NCBI GenBank assembly: GCA_039545355.1
Contig: BCJJ01000035.1
Location: forward strand, 62,001-126,000
Direction of reading: 5' to 3'
Length of the DNA: 64,000 nt
Origin: Trichosporon coremiiforme
Taxonomy: Eukaryota > Basidiomycota > Tremellomycetes > Trichosporonales > Trichosporonaceae
Shown here: positions 12,501 through 29,236 of the stretch, in pieces
Position numbering within the stretch: the first letter of the stretch is position 1
Layout: every line of letters starts with the position of its first letter
Notes under the pieces: generated by a model
The model's database searches: none
The model's input: only the letters and a program-made list of their open reading frames with translations
What the model was told of the DNA's origin: nothing
Translations under genes and position numbers: made by a program

Positions 12501-14506
12501 ACTTCATGGAGGGCTTCTCCTCTACTGAGGACCTCATCACTGTTTCTGATGTGTCTGGGGCCGTTGGGGCATCGGTCAAGATGAGGGGTAAGAGCTCACT
12601 CGTTGTGAAACCAAGCTGACAGGCAGCCAAGATGAAGCTCATGTCCGGGTTCCGCGCCTGCCGTCTGATCTACCTCGTTGCGGGAAAGGTGAGTTATCAT
12701 ACGGAGTTTGAACTGACGGACAGGACAAGGGCTATGTCAAGGACATCATGAACTGGCCCAAGTCTGCTCAGACCAAAGTCTTCGCTGCTCGCTCGACGGG
12801 CGCGGACGAAGCTGACAAGGACCCCTTCCTCGAACTCGGTAACGACCACCTGTTCTACGCCGGCTGCTTTTTCCCGAGGACCTTCGACCAGTGGTCCAAC
12901 GAAATCAGGAAAACCGGCGGACAACTCCAGGCTAGTGAGGGCGCTGCTCAGCAGCCACAGTCTGCCGCCGCCCAGCAGCACCTTGGGCAGGGAGCGCCGA
13001 CGCCTCAGCAGCAGCTCCAGACGCAGCAGCTTGCCCCCGAGACCACCCCCAACCCTGGTCCCCTCGACCCCAACCACACAGGGTTGACCGCTCGTCCCGG
13101 CGCTTTCGCCGGCCTGCAGCAGCCCCTCAACCCGACGCAGTACAGCACGCCTCCACCCCAGTCGAGTTACACTCCACTCGCCCCCAGTCAGAGTTCCGTG
13201 GCTCCCATGCAGCCCCAGCAGCAGCCTCCCCCTCAGGGCCAGACCGTTGTCGGCTGGGGTCAGACCCGCAGTGCCACGTACAGCCACAGTTACCTGGCGC
13301 CGCCTCAAGGTCCTCCCCAGGGCGCTCCGCAGGAGAGGCAGCAGACACCTCACGGTGCGGACTGGGGCCAGCGCAGCGCTTCGTGGAGCCAGCCTCCTCA
13401 GCAGCAGCAGCAACAGGCTCCTCCTCAGCAGCAGCAACAGGCTCCTCCTCAGCAGCAGCAGCAAGCTCCTCCCCAGCGGCAGCAGCAGACCCCTCCACAG
13501 CAGTGGCAGCAGGCTCCGCCCCAGCAGCAGCAGGCGCCTCCTCAACAGTGGCAACAGCCTGCGCCTCAGCACCAGGGTCCGCCTCATCAGCAGCCTCCAC
13601 CTCAGCAGTGGCAGCAGGGCCCGCCCCAGCAGTCTCAGCAGCCTGTTTGGCAACAGCCCCAGCAACAGCAGCCGCCCCTGCAGCAGCATCAGCAGCAACC
13701 CCCTCCTCAGCAGCAGCAGGGGTGGGGACAGCAGCCCGCTCACCCCGAAGCTGGTTGGCATCAGCCCGCTCCTCAGCAGCAGTGGCAGCCGCAGGGTGGG
13801 AACCAGCAGCCCCCCGCTCAACAGTGGGGTCAACCTCCTCTGCAGCATCAAGGCCAGCAGCCTCCTGCTCAGTTCCAGGCTCAGCCCCAGCAGCCTCAGC
13901 AAGCTCCTCAGCAGCAGCACGCTCCGCAGCAGCAGCAGCCTCAGCAGCCTGCTCAGTCTCAGCAGCCTCCCTGGAACCAGTACGGCGCCGCTCCTCCTGC
14001 CCAGCCTCAGCAGCCGCAGAAGCAGCCTTCGCCCGCTGCTGAGCACCGCCAGTCTCAGGCGCGTCGCTACAACAAGGTGACTCTCTCCCATCGTCGCGGT
14101 TACGCCGGTTCGATCGGGGGGAGCCCTCCGTCGACCGACGAGGACAACCCTCTGCTCAAGGACGTGCCCCAGACGTCGCGTACCTTCGTCTCGCGCCCTC
14201 CCCAGTTTGCTCGTCCCGAGGACCCCGTCCAGCGTCCTGGAAGCTCCAACTCGCTGATCTCCATGGTCAGCTCCGCCGTGCACGGCCGTGGGGCGGGTCC
14301 TCCTCCCACTTTCCGCGTGCGCGACGTCTCGCAGCCTCACAATCAGCCTGCTCACGCTCCTCATGCACCCCAGCCTGCTGATGTTAAGGCTCCTCCTCCC
14401 TGGACCCAGAACGGTGGTGTTGCCCAGAAGCTCGAGAACAACGCGGCCCACTGGCGCTTGGTGAGTTGACGTCGAGCCGAAGGTCGGAACTAACGCCACT
14501 CAGTGA
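9511..14506 (+). CDS. Large coiled-coil, Gln/Pro-rich protein with DUF7923-like domain
   Basis: Nine exons: 9511-11648, 11686-12100, 12136-12183, 12221-12361, 12403-12429, 12464-12587, 12627-12688, 12724-14460 and 14504-14506, about 1564 residues. Residues 1-715 are Ser/Pro/Thr-rich and disordered. A coiled coil follows (about 750-850, e.g. ALKAEGEAREAADRTCALEA). Next is a folded domain starting HGFVAVFMEGEGRMFDPEEL and including MSGFRACRLIYLVAGKDKGY and DHLFYAGCFFP; from memory this resembles the domain preceding CCCH fingers in fungal zinc-finger proteins (DUF7923). No CCCH finger is visible. About 400 residues of Gln/Pro-rich sequence follow, with many CAG and CCT codons. The role is unknown; RNA handling or condensate formation is only inference. 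The first donor overlaps a TAA stop and the final intron falls just before the stop codon. Splitting it into two genes at 11650 is possible but less likely. Confidence 0.75.
13385..13990 (+). repeat. CAG/Gln-Pro-rich low-complexity tract
   Basis: Within the last large exon, CAGCAG(CAG) blocks alternate with CCTCC/CCC codons and encode repeated QQQQAPPQ-type units, with three nearly identical 15-18 nt units near 13395-13470. The tract is likely length-variable. Its reverse strand stays open for 600 codons as a poly-Leu/Arg artefact. Confidence 0.85.
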
Positions 14507-14854: not shown

Positions 14855-16401
14855 ATGGGCGACGACACGTATCTGATTGCGCTGAACTGCGGCTCGTCCT
14901 CGATCAAGGGACGGCTGTACGTCGTGCCGCACAGCAGGAAGGAGAAGTTTGAGCAGATCGCGACGCTGAGCGTGAGCAACATTGGCGCGCCCGGCGAGCC
15001 GATCCACTTCACGCTCAAGTGGAGCGACAACAAGGGCAAGGATATGGACATTCACACGGACGACGGAGGGAGTGTTGAGCGTAAGTACCTAGGGCTAGCG
15101 AGGCTCCGCAGGAACCGGAGCCGGCAGCTGTGCTTCTCCCTTGGTCGGGAACGGGGATGGTCGACGAAAAGAGTGATAGCTAACACCCAGACAAGGACCT
15201 GTTCCCGCGCATCCTCGACCACCTCTCGGGCTCCGGCGGCGTGAAGAAGGACCAGATCCGCTACGTAACGCACCGCATCGTGCACGGCGGCGAGAACAAG
15301 AAGCCCCTCGTCGTGACGAGGGAGCACCCCGAAGCGCTGAAGGACATGGACAAGCTCGGCGAGTTTGCCCCTCTACACGTATGTCGAGGCTTTCTAAAGT
15401 GGAGGAGCGTAGCTAACAATCGTAGAACTACCACGCCATACTCGGCGTCCGCGCGTGCCTTGATGTGCTGCCTGAGAGCAAGAACTTACTCTGCTTCGAC
15501 ACCTTGTTCCATGTGAGTCACTGACGGCTGTCGGTACGTGCAAGGGCTAACGGGGTGGCAGCAAACCCTCCCGCCCGCAGTGTACAAGTACTCCCTCCCG
15601 CCCACCAAGGTCGAGACCGTAATCCCGCTGCGGAAGTACGGCTTCCACGGCCTCTCCTACGCCTCGATCACGCACACGATCTCGAAGGAGTTCGGGCGAC
15701 CCGCCAACCTCGTCGTGTGCCACCTTGGATCCGGCTGTTCAGCAGCCTGCATCCACGACGGCAAGTCCATCGACACGTCCATGGGCCTGACGCCGCTCGA
15801 GGGTCTCGTCGGCGGAACGCGCACGGGAAGCATAGACCCCACCGCCATCTTCCACCACACGCCCGACTACGCCGAGATGGTGCCCGAGCTGCACGTGAAC
15901 AAGGCAGAGTTCGTCATGAACAAGAAGTCTGGCCTGCTCGGGTTGAGCGGGACGACAAACTTTGGCCACATCTGTGAGCGCAAGGCCGCCAATGTCGGAG
16001 ACGTGCTGGGCAAGAACGAGAAGAGCGACGGCTTCAAGGTTACGAAGGAGGACAAGGCGAACGCGGCGCTCACGTACGATGTGTTCCTGGACCGGCTCAT
16101 GGCGTACCTCTCGCAGTACGTGCTGAAACTGGCGCACGAGACGGGCGGGGTCGAGAACATTGACGGAATCGTGTTCGCGGGCGGTATTGGAGAGCACTCG
16201 GCGGAGTTGAGGAAGGACGCTATTGGACGGTTGGGCGTGCTCGGCGTCAAGATCGATGAGAAGACGAACGACGCTGGCGTGCCCGATGGCAAGACGCAGG
16301 TGCTTGTCAGCACGGGCGACAGCAAGGTCCAGGTGTACATTGTCCTTACGGACGAGGAGGGATGGACGGCGCACATGGCCCGCGAGGTGTTTGATATCTA
16401 G
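14855..16401 (+). CDS. ACK: Acetate kinase
   Basis: Four exons: 14855-15080, 15191-15378, 15426-15512 and 15562-16401, 446 residues, close to the fungal family length. Motifs in order: NCGSSSIKG (N-terminal phosphate loop of the ASKHA fold), THRIVHGGE, the acetate-site motif CFDTLFHQTLP, GFHGLSYASI, HLGSGCSAACI, GTRTGSIDP and the C-terminal FAGGIGEHSAELRKD. The reaction is acetyl phosphate + ADP to acetate + ATP, or the reverse. In fungi that carry it, family knowledge pairs it with xylulose-5-phosphate/fructose-6-phosphate phosphoketolase in a cytosolic acetate bypass rather than with phosphotransacetylase. No partner enzyme is in this window. The start follows from the conserved motif beginning 10 codons after the only nearby ATG. 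A bacterial origin of the family is possible, but the introns show it is long domesticated. Confidence 0.96.
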
Positions 16402-16638
16402 ACTAGAGGATGTGATAAGATAGGAAGTCACAGTGTACACGAGCTGTTCTTTCAGGGAAGAGTTCCTAATCATCGATGTATTGTCAGTTGTTATCAGTGT
16501 GCCAAAGTCATCGCAGAACAAGAGTTAGGCAGAATCTAGTGCATACAAGCGACCAAGGTCGGAGTAGATGTTACAGTCATGTTGGTGTTGGTTTGTGCGA
16601 ATTATTGTTTGTTGCGGAACAGAGAGCGAGCGCGGTGC

Positions 16639-17202
16639 TTAAGCCCTGCGAGCAGGCTCGATGCCCTCAGTAGCGTTCAGCGCCTCCTTGCGACAGCTGG
16701 AGAGACCGCCGGCCCTGCACGCCTTGCACGTCGAGGGGTTGCTGGGAGTCAGCTGAGTCCTTGCGAGCCCGACAACTGTTCTCTGTGTTATCTTGCCGAT
16801 GGCCGCCTCCGGTCCTGCGCTGCCCGATTACATGGCAGGACGGTGGGACGATTGGAGAACGACGCGCGGAGCGATAGACCGTTGGGCGACGGCAGCATTG
16901 TAGCGGCGCAAGCGGCGGCACCAACACAACACCGAGGTCCCACCTCGGCGAAGAGAACACTACAGAACCACCAAAATAACTCACCCAGTGCACTCGGTCG
17001 AGACACAGCATCCGCATCCCTGGCACGCCTCGCACTGTCCCGGGTCGGCAGTGCAGCCACGGCACTCGGTCTTAGCGCAGTGGTCGCCGGTGTGGACCTT
17101 GGCGGCGCCAGTCTGATTGTCAGCTGAAGCTCAGAACAGTGATAGCTGGAAACTTACGCCGCAGAAGCCGCACGAGTCGGGGTTGCCAGTGCACTCGGAC
17201 AT
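16639..17202 (-). CDS. Small Cys-rich protein, metallothionein-like
   Basis: Three exons: 17202-17158, 17112-16985 and 16741-16639, 91 residues with 15 cysteines and no aromatic residue except one Phe. Three related modules are visible: ECTGNPDSCGFC in exon 1, GCTADPGQCEACQGCGCC in exon 2 and ECTGNPSTCKAC across the exon 2/3 junction. The match between the first and third modules appears only after splicing, which strongly supports exon 3. CxxC and CC pairs, small size and a Cys share near 16% are what metal-thiolate proteins show, so I infer cytosolic copper/zinc/cadmium binding; no homologue is recognised by name. A TATA box lies 110 bp upstream. If the second intron (243 nt) is retained, translation stops at once (TGA inside the donor GGGTGAGT), giving 58 residues with 12 Cys. 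A Cys-rich structural protein is the alternative. Confidence 0.75.
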
Positions 17203-17311: not shown

Positions 17312-17318
17312 TTATATA
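17312..17318 (-). promoter_or_regulatory. TATA box of the metallothionein-like gene
   Basis: TATATAA on the minus strand, 110 bp upstream of the ATG at 17202. TATA promoters in fungi favour strongly inducible genes, which would suit a metal-response gene. I could not identify a metal-response element with confidence. Confidence 0.5.
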
Positions 17319-18067
17319 TCCAGCCCAGAGCCAGTGCCCTATGGGCCCTATGATGTAACCCGCTATCAGCGGTTGGCCAGGCGTAGGCGGAGTCGGCCGG
17401 GGTAGGACTGGGCGCTGGGTGAGCCGCTGGAAGCCGCTGGATATGGTGGAAGCAGTGGCATGTCATGTCCCGTGGCCAATCAGCGTCTGCGTAATTGTCA
17501 GCTGGACTCGGGGCTGAGTCAAGCATGCGTCAAGATTCCAGGGGGGAAGGTCTGGGGGCGTATTTGGGCCACTGAAATCGCTGCTGAATGTCAGCTGCCA
17601 GCACCGCCAGGGTGTTAAGGTGTGGTACCAGCCGCCGATCTCCGTCACAGTCACAGATTACAATTACGTAACAATGACCGATGACATTGAATGCAGTGCA
17701 GATCTCTCAACTCGGTGCATACCGCCGCAAACAGTTCCGATTCAGTGCTAACTTTTGGCAGCTCGGTGAAAATACATTGAGTTATGCACTGTCCAAATAT
17801 GATGCATGCAGGAGCTGCATGAGGCCGCTGGGAGAGATAAGAGTGACAAGGTGCCCAAGCTGAATGTACATTACGTAACCAGGTCTCAGAAGTCTCCCAC
17901 GGTTAACTTGAACAGCGGGATCAAAAAGTCCAAGTGTGGCACCACACCTCCACCAACCACCACCCACCACCTACGTTCACCCAACCAGATCATTCTCTTT
18001 CGACGTCGAAAGACTGCAGAAAACGATGCAGAACAGTTGCAGGATGCAAAACAGAACGCTGCGCTCG
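17319..18067. other. Spacer upstream of metallothionein-like gene
   Basis: About 750 bp with no protein-like frame. It contains a perfect 16 bp palindrome at 17997-18012. Probably the distal promoter of the Cys-rich gene. Confidence 0.4.
17997..18012. promoter_or_regulatory. Perfect 16 bp palindrome
   Basis: CTTTCGACGTCGAAAG reads the same on both strands. It lies between the Cys-rich gene and the tRNA, 56 bp past the tRNA 3' end. It has the form of a dimer-binding site (TCGACGTCGA core containing ACGT, as bZIP factors prefer). The role is inference. Confidence 0.4.
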
Positions 18068-18151
18068 TGGAGAACTTAGGAATCGAACCAAAGACCTTGT
18101 CAAGGCTAGCTGCTTGCTAATGACACGCTCTACCAACTGAGCTAGATCCCC
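18068..18151 (-). tRNA. tRNA-Ala(AGC) with an 11 nt intron
   Basis: The minus strand folds as a tRNA: acceptor GGGGATC / GTTCTCC, D arm GCTC-AGTTGGTA-GAGC, anticodon stem TGTCA / TGACA with loop TTAGCA...T, variable AGGTC, T arm TTTGG-TTCGATT-CCTAA, discriminator A. Anticodon 34-36 is AGC. An 11 nt intron (AGCAGCTAGCC) sits after position 37, the usual eukaryotic site. The pair 3-70 is G-T (G-U), the alanine identity element, which supports the call. Without the intron it is 73 nt. Two T-T mismatches (6-67 and 51-63) are unusual and raise the chance of a decayed copy. Confidence 0.78.
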
Positions 18152-22327: not shown

Positions 22328-25300
22328 CTAATCCGTCAAGGTCATCACGCTCGGTACCCGGTCGCTGACCCATACCAACTCGTCCCTCAGCTCGCGCATC
22401 CACAGCCCGTACTCCTCCTTCATGATTACGCCGACAATTCTTCCCTTGTACAGCCTACTCGCGGAGACAAGCTCGTTCAGACATCGGAACACGAACGCCT
22501 TTGTCGAGACCTCGGTGCGGGCGTCTTCCAGCACGGAGCGGAGATTGCCTAAAACCAGCGAGAGGAGCCTATGCCGCCGGCCGAGAAACAGGCCGCGGGT
22601 GATGGGACCGACGACCTCGGGCTCTGGTTCCGGTACAGCTGCGCCGATCGTGAAGTCGCCTGATGCGTCTACTGGCGGAGGCGAGGGCGAGTGTACGGGC
22701 GGGTGAGAAGGCGGATCCGGAGCGCTGAAGACGGACGGGGCGCCGCGGAACAGGGGGTCGGTACCCACGCCCGGGAGTGAAAGCAGCGCTTCGAGATACT
22801 TGTGCTCAGTCGAGATGCGCGTTGCTGTGATTGCCTGGAAGAACAGCAAGGCGTACTCCTCCCGGTACGCGCGGTACGAGGCGGGATCGGCGGACGCCAC
22901 TGTACTCATAAACTGCAGACCGACCTGGATGCGGCCGTACACTGACGACAGGCGGGCCCATGACTGCGTGCCGAAGGAGCCGACGTACATGCTCCAGTCC
23001 TGACGTTAGCTAACGCACATCTTGCAGCTGAATACTCACGGCAATTCCGTGCTCCACCACGACGATCCCGGCGCAGTCGCTCCAGCACTTTGTCAGCTTG
23101 CCGACCAGAACGAGACGTTCTCGCTCGCGCTCGCGCTCCGTTTCGTCTCCCGCATCCGTCGGGAGCATGTCGCTCAGCAGCCGGTAGATCTTAGGGCAGA
23201 TGACGTCCATGATAATGCGCGCAAACTCCGCGTCCATCTTCTCGATCGGATCCTCCTCGCGCTGGCCCGCGTCGCCGAGGTCCGCCCCGCCAAGGAGCTC
23301 AAGGTCAATGTCGTCAAACTCGAACCCGAGCGAGGGGTAGTCATCACTCTCGGCGCGCTTCAGGTCGCGCGCCTTCTTCGCCTTCTTTGGCAGGGCGGCA
23401 GCGCGTGCGTCCAGGAAGGCTTGGATCGTCGACACAATCTCGAGACCAGACTTGACGTCTTTCGCGAGATCGAGCTCGAACACTCTTCCCGTCCATGACT
23501 CGTGCAGTAGTGCCGGGTCAGGGTACACCGGCTCGTCGCGCGGGGTGTACGAGGCGTGCAGGATGATCTGCCGGAAGCACGTCACGACGAGCACCATCGT
23601 GCGCTCGATCTCGATGCGTCGAGGGAAGAACCCTTGCTGAATATACGTCGGCTTCTTGACCTTCTCGAGCTCGGCCTGAAGGATGCCAAGCATCTCGGCG
23701 AGCTTGCCCACGACGCCGTCGAGTGCGTACCCATGGTGACGGCAAGCGACCGCGAGATACATCAGACCACGAATGCACACCTGGCGCGACTCAAAGTCGG
23801 CAGCCTCGAATGAGAGCCATTTGGCGCTGTTCGCGAGCAGCCAAGGCAGTAGCGCTGGCGAGAAGTAGCACGCGACGACCATCGTCGAGTACCGGTTGAT
23901 CAGCGCACCGAGCTGTCGGGGCGTTGGCGGCCGCTCACGCGAGAATGGGACGGCACTGAGCGGGAAGATACTCATGATCAGACGTTGCACGTCGCGCTCC
24001 GCCTGGTGCGCCTCCGTCAGCTCTTCGGCTGACCCGATAAGATCACTTGCTGCGACCGCCGCTAAGCGCAGATACAGCTCGAAGGCGGATGCACGCTTCG
24101 TGTCCTCTGTCGCCGTTAGGGAGAAGTCGAACGCTGAGATGAACGTCGGGAAGTCCGCCGCTGGCTCCGTCGGGAGGTTTCGCTGTTGCCGCTCTTTGAA
24201 GATCATGCCGAGGTCGCGAGTCGCAACAGAGAAGCTCGAGCGGTCGAACGACCACTGCCACGTTGACGACATCCGGAGGCATCGTGCAACCATCGTCTTG
24301 ATGTAGCGGTCGCGGCCGAGCAGCTGATCGCGGTGCGCTGCCTCTTCGACCTCGAGCGAGTGTGTGACTTTGATCAGGCCGAGGGCACGCTTCACGAGCG
24401 ACCATCGCGGGCTGGGCACGTAGTCCTTGTCGACGGAGCCGTCGTGGCTAAACTGCGATACGGCGCAGAGACCGAAGACGAGGAACCACACGCGCTCGGC
24501 CGCCAGAGGACCAAGCTCGTTCTTGTACCGCTGTTCGAGAGCGTCGCCGATCGCAGCTCCAAACGTGTCGTCCTTCTCGTGCAGAGCGTCGAAGGCGGCG
24601 AGAGCATGGCCGACCGCGACCCAGACACCCACGGTAGGATCCCTAATCTCCGGAGTGTCGGAGTCGCCCCGCAGCAGTCTCTTCACAGGCTTCACGGACC
24701 GGTCGAAGCCGTACGTGAGCAGCAAGCTGATGACAGTGGACGCGGCGGATACGATGTCTGGCGAGTTGGTGATAACAGCCAGCTCCAGCAACGCATATCG
24801 CGCGAGCAGGAGCTGGTGCATGAGCAGCCTGTCCTCCTTGCGGCCCGTAACCGAAACGGAGTTGAGGCGCTTCGCAAACGTCGTGAAGAACGTGTAGATG
24901 GTCGTCCGCGTGTCCTCAGTCTTCTGAGCGAGGTAGTCACGGAAGAACACGAGCGGCGAGAAGTCAGGTGGAGCAGAGTCGACATCGTCAGCGAACCGCA
25001 CGACCTGGTCGTAGATGGCGTCGAGAACGATGGGAAGCACAGCAGTGACTTCCTCCGTCGACATCTCTGAGTGCAGGTGCACGCCGCTTGTGCGCAGAGG
25101 CTTCAGCTCATCGGCCTGTCCGCTAAGCACGTCGATGAGAGCGTTCAGACGTCCACTGCCTGGTATCGTGTCGCACGAGAGGAAGACGCCGGTCGGAAGC
25201 GGCTGGATGTCAAAATCGATGGGGAACTTCTCAAAGTTGGCCCAAGACTTTGCCCTTCCAACTCCTTCGTCGACCTGCTCCTTGGTCACTCGTGGAGGTG

Positions 25301-28300
25301 CTGGTGCGGGAGCAGGTGGCGGCGTGAGTGTCGTCTGGATGGAACGGCGCGTACCCTTCGATTGAACTCGCTGGAACGGCCGGTTCGTCCTTCCGATCGG
25401 GTCAGCAGCGCGGGGCGTCGGCGACTTTTCAGCGACGATTTCAACTTCAGACTCGCTCTCGAAAGCGAAGTCCTCAGTTGCAAAGATGACGTGATCGTCG
25501 AGGCGGATAGCTGGTCTCGTCGTGGTCGACCTCTTGCGGCCTTCGGATCGGCCTGCAGAGCGTTGGGCTTCGGGCCGGGAGGCTCGTCGCGACTTCTTGT
25601 TCTTACGGGCGGATCCAGGCTCCTCGACCGGAAAGTCGAGGCGCATTTGCACGAGCCGTCCCGTCGACGAGAGTACACCCCTTCGTTGCTTCGAGAAGCC
25701 GAGAGCGGGCCGGCGCTGCTTCTTCGACCGAGGCTGACCAGCGGGGTCCTTCCGCCGCGGTGGCGGGGTAGTGCGACCGCGCACGATGGACTCGAAGTCG
25801 CCACGTTGCAGCCGCGCGAGGGCGTCGTTCGTTCGGTTGTCCTCCCTCGCTTCGAACCCGTCCGAACTGCTGTCAGACAAGACGTCGACGGCGCCGTCGG
25901 CCTCTGAGCCGTCGGAACCTTCCTCCGCAGCAAGGTCGATGACATGCGGAGCGCTGTCTTCCTCGTCAGAGGAGTCGAACAAGTCCGCCATGTCATCGAA
26001 CCCGCCTCCTCCGCCACGTCGGACGACAGCGTGGCCAGGTCGAACAGGAGATCTAGTGCGGTCTCTAGCTCGTCGCTCCTTCTCCTCCTGCCTTCGACGT
26101 TCTCGCTCGCGGGCATCCTGCTCAAGGCGCTTCAGCATGACACCAGGCAGCATACGCCTTGCGATCTTTTGTCGCTTGTCGCGGGCAGCAGGAGCTGGGG
26201 AAGAGTCATCATCGTCGCTGTCCTCACTGTCCGCACTGGAACTCGAGGGAAGACGCTTCCGCTTGACAGCGGAAGTGGATCTTGACCTACGGGTCTGGAA
26301 TCCCGGTTCATCGTCGTCCTCGCCGTTGTCGACGGGTCCTGGCGAAGGTGTGTGAATACCACCGAAAAATGCAGCACCCATGTCCATGTCGTAATCCATA
26401 CCATTGTCGCCGAAGACATCAGGCGAAAGTGGTGTGGGTAGAGCAGACGCCTCGCGGTAAGGCGGTCCTTGACTCAAAGGCGGAGTTGCATCGGAGTCGG
26501 GCGATAGTGTGACACGAACGGGGGCGATGGGCGGCGCCTCTTCCTCAGGAGGAGGATCGGAGAGCTCAGAGTCGGAGTTGCTCCCAGCACGGTCCATGGC
26601 CTCGCGGTGGCGACGGCTGTAGGTCACGGTTCGAGGCGTCTTCCCCGTCTTCCCCTTACTCTTGGACGCGTTCGACTTTTGAGCTTGCGGAGTCTTCGCT
26701 GGCTGTTTGCGAGCAGTCTGTTGAGTGACGGGCCGTTTGGACTGCTGGTCCTTGGTCTTCGGGGTATCGCGGAGCTGACGAGAGGGAGGCGGCCGGTTGG
26801 CGAGATCCTCGCCTCTCCGCTCGCCCAGGAGAGCCTCGAACTCTCTGCGCTCCCTCTCAGCGCGTCTAGCAGCCCTCCTGGACGCTTTCTCTGCACGGAG
26901 TCGTTTGCGCGCGATCTTCTGCAGTTCCTGCTGTGCGTTCTCATCATCTTCAGCAGCCGCCTCGCCGAATTCGAGCAAGTATTCGTCAAAATCGGCGTCG
27001 ACCAGCTCGACGGGAGGGCGAGATTTGCGCTGCTTTTGCTGCTGCTCGCGTTCTTGCGTTCCGCCTATGACAATCGCATCCGGAGGTGTGACATCCTCGT
27101 CCGAGCTCTTGTCACTGGCGCCTTCCTCTTCCTCATCGATGTCGGAGGCTTCCTTGACCTCCCTCAGCGGGGCCACGGCGCGCTTGCTCTTCGCAAGACC
27201 GCCACGCTTGAGAGCACGCTCGTACATCTGCCGCTCACGAGTGTACGGCTGGAGCTGAAGAGCTGTTCTGTTGCGAAACGTTCGCGCGAACCGGAACTGG
27301 AGTAGAGCTGGGTCGGCGGGGCCATCGCCCTGACGTGACCTGTGAGAACGTTGAGAAGCCGGAATGCGTAAGTCTGCTCGCAGCAGACTGCTGCGCTGAG
27401 ACGCACCCAGTGGCGAGGAAGGGCGAGCACGCTGGCTCGGAACGGCCGAAGGCTGTGTCAGTGCAGAGATCAGCGAGGGAGGGAAGAGCACCGGGTCGTC
27501 CCTCGCGGGAGCCTCGATCTGTTCGACCGCCGGTAGTGAAGTAGGGCCAGCGCGCTGGCTCGGAGCTGCCAGAGGTTGTGTCGGGGCAGATATCAAAGAG
27601 GGAGGGAAGAGCACCGGGTCGTCCCTGGCAGGTGCCTCAACCTGTTGAATCGCCGGTGGTGAGGAGGGGCGAGCACGCTGGCTCGAAGCCACTGGAGGCT
27701 GTGTCGGTGCGGATTTCAGAGAGGGAGGAGAGAGGACCGGATCTTCCCTCGCCGGAGCATCTACCGTGTCGTCTGCAGGTAAGGAATGGTCAACCGGCTG
27801 GGATTCCCAGTCGGCTGCGGGCAACGGCAGGTCGGCTACGCCATCATCTTGAGCAACGTCTGGAAGGAAGGAAAGTTTAGGGGGTGACCGCGGCTGGGGC
27901 TGCTGCCGGTCAGAGGCGGAAGCAACGTTCCCCTGTTCGTCCTCAGCTGCGTCGGGTCCTATGTCGATCTCAATGGGCTGGTGTTTCGGCGGAGACGCAG
28001 CCTGCGACTCATCCTGCAACGCATGTTCGGGTTCAGCGGGAACTTCCGGCACTGGGTTGTCAAAGAACGCCAGATCTTGAGAGTTGAGCGACTTGGGAAG
28101 GGAGAGGGATCGGTAGACGGGAGATGGGTCATGTGGCGGTGGCGAGTCTCGGCGTTCCTCAGTATCAATATGTTGGACCTGGGGGGATTGGCGCGGAGAG
28201 GGTGAACGTAGAGAAGGCTGTGGCGGAGTATGTTGGAGAGGAGGAACAACCTGGGGCTCAGGCTGGGGTGATGGTGTAGGTTCTCGAGCGTCTGGTGGAG

Positions 28301-29236
28301 GTTCTGGTAGTCGTGCTCGCGGAGTCAGCTGAGGTGACTTTGACTCCCGATCTTCCGTTGTCCGGGTCGGTGGAAGCACGTAGTCATCATGATCCGCTGT
28401 TCGAGATGGGGGCAACGGAAACGTCGTCGGTGTTTGAGTGTCCGTACTCGCACTCTCTTCTCCGAATAAGTCGGCCCGCTCCTTGCCCTTGCGCGATGGT
28501 GTAGGTCTTGGCGTCGACGAGCTCGACGACGGGGGGGACGAACTCCAGCCTCCTGATCCGTATGACTCTTGTGAACTGAAGAGCACTTGGAAGTGACCGG
28601 GGCGAGGACTTGGTGACAGCGGGGGTAAGCTCGAAGATGAGTGTATTGGGTTTGGTGACGGCGAGGGCGGGAGGGAGGGGGAGGCGACCGAGCGTAATCG
28701 CGATGGTTGCCGAGAGCGACTAACCGTCGACGGTACTGAGTCGGGCGATAAGATTGACGTGTTCACACGTATGGGGACCTCCTCATAGTCGTCGTCGTAA
28801 TGTAACGCGGGGAACCCAAGGCGGGGCATCGTTGCTGTTCCGGACGGCCCAGCTTCGCTCTGTTGGTCAACACACGTCAGGCACACCCTCTCACACTCGA
28901 AACACTCACCTCATGCTCTAATCGCTCGACCGCCCTTACAGCTCTCCAAGCATCGTACTCCTCATCGTCGCTTGGTGGAATAAGGTCGCTGGGCCCTCCT
29001 TCTTTGGCAGCCTCCTCCTGTCCACGGAAAGGACGGTGGTGTCGAGTTCGGTATGGGGAAGGTCCTACGCCGCCACCGATCGCGGATTGAGCCGCCGCCC
29101 GGCGACGCGTCTGTCGTTGGGTAGTCGGCGGTGGTGTCGACGCTGCTCCGATGACACTCGGTGATGCTGCCGGAGATGCGCTGCTTGCAGCTTGAGTACT
29201 CTGGCGACCGCCGCGGGTGCGCTTCCGCGGCGGCAT
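22328..29236 (-). CDS. MMS22: Mus7/MMS22 family replication-fork repair protein
   Basis: Three exons: 29236-28910, 28859-23040 and 22999-22328, in phase 0 throughout, about 2272 residues. It starts MPPRKRTRGGRQ (basic, nuclear-type). The first 1250 residues are Pro/Ser-rich, acidic and Arg-rich with several basic clusters, and include a three-fold 41-residue repeat. The C-terminal 1000 residues are helical and contain GVFLSCDTIPGSGRLNALID, the signature I associate with Mus7/MMS22 proteins, then long alpha-helical stretches such as LVFFRDYLAQKTEDTRTTIY. Family role: nuclear scaffold acting with the Rtt101-Mms1 type cullin ligase at stalled or damaged forks. The last exon encodes a conserved helical tail ending SDRVPSVMTLTD. 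Length fits fungal members. Several 200-280 codon frames on the + strand are reverse shadows. Confidence 0.9.
27421..27770 (-). repeat. Three-fold 123 bp (41 aa) tandem repeat within MMS22
   Basis: Units begin at 27421, 27544 and 27667 with an exact 123 bp period, so the reading frame is kept. Each encodes a variant of APARDDPVLFPPSLISA followed by TQP...SQRA and a Pro/Ser linker. The copies differ at scattered bases, so the duplication is not brand new. Conservation of the DPVLxPPSL core hints at a repeated binding motif. Confidence 0.88.

Follow-up and report, generated by a model that had tools for sequence, protein, structure and literature searches.

Does the DNA between an acetate kinase frame (15517–16401, PF00871) and a tRNA-Leu gene (18067–18151) of the window, the whole 64-kb stretch of DNA analysed here, carry a gene that has escaped notice, and if so, does that gene encode a metallothionein? 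A first-pass annotation had proposed both, on the strength of a 91-residue product with 15 Cys which appears after splicing of three short segments. Joining the three minus-strand exons listed in Table 1 reproduced this product exactly. The gene turns its 3' end towards the acetate kinase frame, with the tRNA-Leu gene upstream. Both introns are of the GT-AG type and have CTGAC near the acceptor. All exons are shorter than 130 nt, as had been stated, and are overlain on both strands by longer frames, among them one of 195 aa on the plus strand (16540–17127) and one of 134 aa on the minus strand (16667–17071), so that the product is invisible in any single frame. Its third Cys module is also formed only by splicing: the junction falls between ECTG and NPSTCKAC.

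Table 1. Features of the predicted gene and of its upstream region (positions in the window).
Feature	Position	Strand	Description
Exon 1	17202–17158, 45 nt	minus	residues 1–15; C4, C11 and C14 of module 1
Intron 1	17157–17113, 45 nt	minus	phase 0; GTAAGT...CTGACAATCAG (ends CAG)
Exon 2	17112–16985, 128 nt	minus	C27; module 2 (C35, C42, C45, C51); C32, C48, C50; C56
Intron 2	16984–16742, 243 nt	minus	phase 2; GTGAGT...CTGACTCCCAG (ends CAG); lies within module 3
Exon 3	16741–16639, 103 nt including stop	minus	C63, C66 and C74 of module 3; tail ATEGIE
TATA box	17312–17318	minus	TATATAA, 110 nt before the ATG; scan
AP-1-type YRE-A site	17664–17671		TTACGTAA; putative function; motif count
Second AP-1-type YRE-A site	17871–17878		TTACGTAA; putative function; motif count

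Relatives were sought in about 5.8 billion protein sequences, with the window protein alone and then with profiles. The search detects only relatives that have short exact words in common with the query, and more distant kin elsewhere may be missed. It returned 25 different relatives (P0001–P0025), 17 with and eight without an organism name. With the window protein alone as query, the top match was a protein from Cutaneotrichosporon spelunceum (E 1.6e-24, 97% of the product covered); P0009 and P0022 reached E values of 1.8e-28 and 3.7e-28 with profiles built without them. The named relatives represent ten genera (Cutaneotrichosporon, Apiotrichum, Vanrija, Cryptotrichosporon, Cryptococcus, Kwoniella, Tremella, Naematelia, Papiliotrema and Kockovaella); Cryptococcus bacillisporus, a species within the C. 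gattii complex, is among their sources. Checked in the taxonomy with one species per genus, all ten belong to the class Tremellomycetes, order Trichosporonales or Tremellales. The last profile search (E up to 10; 21 proteins) gave no named protein outside this set.

The uncharacterized Tremellomycete proteins TREMEDRAFT_57526, L198_05295 and EHS24_001062 are examples of relatives that are databased as hypothetical proteins. They resemble the window protein in sequence, in length, in their 12 Cys and in the tail; the window protein differs by its extra C32, C48 and C50 and by a stretch between C14 and C27 that is longer than in most. By these similarities, the predicted gene is a member of an unnamed Tremellomycete family of small Cys-rich proteins. 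The term 'overlooked' thus needs restriction. It may hold for the lineage of the window, since the 25 relatives include no protein named as coming from Trichosporon and the gene may lack annotation there, but the relatives themselves are already in the databases. Six of their locus tags, when looked for, are mentioned in no paper, and no published account of the 12-Cys family or of its function was recognized in the literature searched. What is new is therefore how the family is defined, the correction of the module and a gene model for a lineage in which the gene seems to lack annotation.

The translated frames of the relatives also allow a comparison of the introns. Of the 17 named relatives, 14 are free of inserts at both junctions; an insert remains in P0006 at intron 1 and in P0017 at intron 2, and the third exception, P0025, is misjoined. 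At the site of intron 1, P0002, P0005, P0006 and P0024 read into a diverged insert beginning with VS, and most others have none; from P0019 and P0020 this intron seems to be absent. At the site of intron 2, the frames of P0002, P0005, P0019 and P0020 stop exactly after ECTG, those of P0017 and P0024 continue into an insert, and P0008 and P0021 reach exon 3 from unrelated sequence. Both introns are supported, as frames of relatives end at, or read into, introns at the matching sites. Frames ending or diverging there also place intron 2 at the same position, in a consistent phase, in Papiliotrema laurentii and the window. The start and the exon 1 residues are common to the window protein and its relatives in the alignment. 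That Cys-rich frames arose by chance and were merely joined by eye might be suspected from the shortness of the exons and the longer frames on both strands, but proteins from many species align across both junctions, and such an accident is hardly conceivable. Judged by these alignments, the short three-exon gene is real.

The alignment revealed a more regular Cys arrangement than had been described. A threefold repeat of C-x6-C-x2-C-x(n)-C, comprising 12 Cys, fits 17 of 26 sequences (the 25 relatives and the window protein); the Cys spacing, whose absence from relatives would have spoken against the proposal, recurs in 16 relatives. The nine that do not fit (P0002, P0005, P0008, P0017, P0019, P0020, P0021, P0024 and P0025) are partial, intron-bearing or misjoined; by reading, P0017 would match without its insert. 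In the window protein the modules are C4-C11-C14-C27, C35-C42-C45-C51 and C56-C63-C66-C74. The three modules claimed by the first-pass annotation are therefore present, but the fourth Cys of each (C27, C51 and C74) had been overlooked as part of it, modules 1 and 3 having been given three Cys each. Modules and exons do not correspond, since the introns interrupt modules 1 and 3. The 14 aligned rows agree throughout at 25 positions, of which 12 are the Cys and 13 are other invariant residues (G6, P8, F13, A28, K29, G34, G47, T57, G58, R75, A81, E83 and G84). The window protein has the marks of the family, namely the three modules, CAK after module 1 and the tail A-x-E-G.

C32, C48 and C50 lie outside this pattern. 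All three occur in P0002 and C32 alone in P0005, while the other 16 pattern-fitting rows have only 12 Cys, save for one Cys in the retained intron of P0006. Read from this distribution, the three are Cys added in the lineage of the window.

Internal triplication, as proposed by the first-pass annotation, was examined here by comparing the modules at their non-Cys positions (BLOSUM62, mean over 17 rows, Cys fixed, 5000 column permutations). Modules 1 and 2 scored 10.2 against a permutation mean of −4.7, a score reached by four of 5000 permutations. The values were 8.2 against −2.8 for modules 1 and 3 (43 of 5000) and 6.5 against −0.4 for modules 2 and 3 (105 of 5000). The modules are thus alike beyond their Cys, and their common origin is supported, most clearly for modules 1 and 2.

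Metallothioneins are small, Cys-rich proteins with prevalent CXC or CC motifs and few or no aromatic residues, which hold metal in thiolate clusters. Small size and high Cys content are found in all 17 pattern-fitting rows (81–107 aa; 12–16% Cys, about 14%). CXC and CC are absent from 16 of the 17, the window protein having one of each. The proteins contain one to four aromatic residues, and F13 is conserved in every one of 14 rows. No metallothionein Pfam family was matched among six, then 14, members scanned; DUF4672, DUF5351 and PF08396 were matched weakly, each by one member. Comparison with solved structures gave no metallothionein; the best matches were a cellophane-induced protein (E 0.1) and a nucleocapsid (E 0.15). 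These and a weak match to NCBIfam SinM (E 2.6) were taken as chance. The fungal metallothionein PF12809 was not matched in the genome either, a weak negative as introns were left unspliced in that search.

Described metallothioneins of the same class offer a direct comparison. According to PMC4755600, the Cryptococcus neoformans proteins CnMT1 and CnMT2 and the Tremella mesenterica protein TmMT are likewise Cys-rich with repeated modules; TmMT is encoded by ten exons, and the CnMTs had been wrongly annotated. These copper metallothioneins are built from seven-Cys CXC blocks (CXCX3CSCPPGXCXCAXCP in TmMT), whereas the 12-Cys family has four-Cys blocks, C-x6-C-x2-C-x(n)-C, that lack CXC. In T. 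mesenterica, P0012 occurs in addition to TmMT, so the two are separate genes. Crs5 of Saccharomyces cerevisiae, with its sequence taken from the same source, is also small and Cys-rich but shows no similarity (hhalign probability 0.5%). In small size, Cys content and repeated modules the protein is like a metallothionein, but the lack of CXC in 16 of 17 rows, the invariant Phe and tail residues and the absence of a match to any described metallothionein family speak against filing the protein there. The family is probably metal-binding without being a standard metallothionein.

The gap of 864 bases between the gene and the tRNA-Leu gene contains the TATA box and both copies of TTACGTAA. These are the only two copies in the 64-kb window, where 0.10 are expected, and two were reached in none of 100 shuffles. 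PMC3111461 names this sequence YRE-A, a binding site of Pap1 and of some Yap proteins; PMC6887862 reports that oxidants induce YAP1 of C. neoformans. The site was noticed before being tested, so the pair is a hint only, in this case of stress control. The 10-base form GTTACGTAAT is not clearly enriched genome-wide (58 copies in 42 Mb against 46 of the reversed control). Close pairs of it, within 300 bases, number four against about 0.02 expected; two of them, on contigs C12 and C99, have the same orientation and 25-base spacing and may be copies of one. At L020:4380–4422, a close pair of TTACGTAA precedes a tryptophan synthase frame; its other neighbour is a minus-strand frame that gave no Pfam match. 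Nine frames near the three other pairs were chosen for comparison with Pfam: two, at L020, are tryptophan synthase, and the remaining seven gave no match. A stress regulon defined by this motif was rejected, no link to stress genes appearing among the nine. Copper and zinc motifs, searched upstream, were not clearly above expectation: one Ace1/Cuf1-like site (0.72 expected), one TGCRCNC (1.47 expected) and none of the others.

The gene has no second copy that could be found in the genome assembly (42.0 Mb), nor have three other stretches of the window, one of which gave other matches of at most about 270 bases. One candidate second copy (L009; E 0.09, 26% identity, one stop) was taken as chance. 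The NAC-domain genes form diverged pairs, C13/C15 and C2/C4 (L001–L004), which are 86.9% and 83.9% identical in DNA across some 3.2 kb. These pairs, together with the nearest relatives, suggest a hybrid Trichosporonales genome, and hybrids occur in the genus Trichosporon according to PMC6642101. Despite the hybrid-looking genome, no homeologous copy of the gene was found. Elsewhere in the window, two adjacent Mus7/MMS22-domain frames on the minus strand (22328–28910) are apparently one gene split by an intron or frame change near 23005–23010. At 12697–14499, frames of 600 and 585 aa overlap on opposite strands; the minus-strand frame has no Pfam match, and part of the region gives short matches of 66–86% at many places in the genome.

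With regard to function, we rather favour a cytosolic protein of three Cys4 modules that would bind soft metal ions through its thiolates. The first Cys already stands at position 3 or 4, and by reading the N-terminus shows no hydrophobic leader, which makes a reducing setting likely. Each module might hold one divalent ion (Zn, possibly Cd), giving about three per protein; alternatively, the 12 thiolates could jointly hold Cu(I) clusters. The protein would then buffer or detoxify metal, and an AP-1 (Yap1-like) stress response may control it. The Cys acquired in the window lineage speak for a role in metal capacity. Against a metal store stand the Cys content, low for a metallothionein, the lack of CXC in all rows but one, the upstream region with no copper or zinc motif clearly in excess, and the 13 invariant non-Cys positions, more than a metal sponge needs. 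These positions and the tail favour a defined structure or a partner. They also speak for the possible, if rather doubtful, view that the protein is a structural one: a conserved surface and tail (R75, A81-x-E83-G84) would be offered to a partner by three fixed Zn(Cys)4 knuckles, and metal would not be stored. F13, A28 and K29 are among the invariant positions as well, and the fixed spacing in 17 of 26 sequences and the single gene copy agree with it. AlphaFold2, however, predicted no confident fold for P0001 and P0010 (pLDDT 44.3 and 45.5, from only 13 and 20 alignment rows), no scanned member matched a zinc-finger Pfam family, and a gain of Cys in and beside module 2 is odd for a fixed site.

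Less probable still, these views might be combined in a redox- and metal-sensitive device: Zn(Cys)4 knuckles would release their metal under AP-1-type stress and so expose the tail to a partner or hide it, and the one lineage adding Cys around its middle module would have moved towards a storage metallothionein. A secreted, disulphide-bonded protein is improbable. It would suit the even number of conserved Cys and the UniRef name 'TNFR-Cys domain-containing' of P0004 and P0013, but none of 14 members matched a TNFR Pfam family. The weak match of one of the 14 to the secreted-toxin family PF08396 (E 0.091) is probably due to Cys alone, and the position of the first Cys and the lack of an N-terminal leader are at odds with secretion.

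Tremellales as well as Trichosporonales have the family, yet in the search results none of its members is named for a function. The locus shows how genes get missed when their exons are below 130 nt and crossed by longer frames. If the family does bind metal, as we favour, Tremellomycetes would have a second metal–thiolate protein, with a CXC-free module, beside their known copper metallothioneins.
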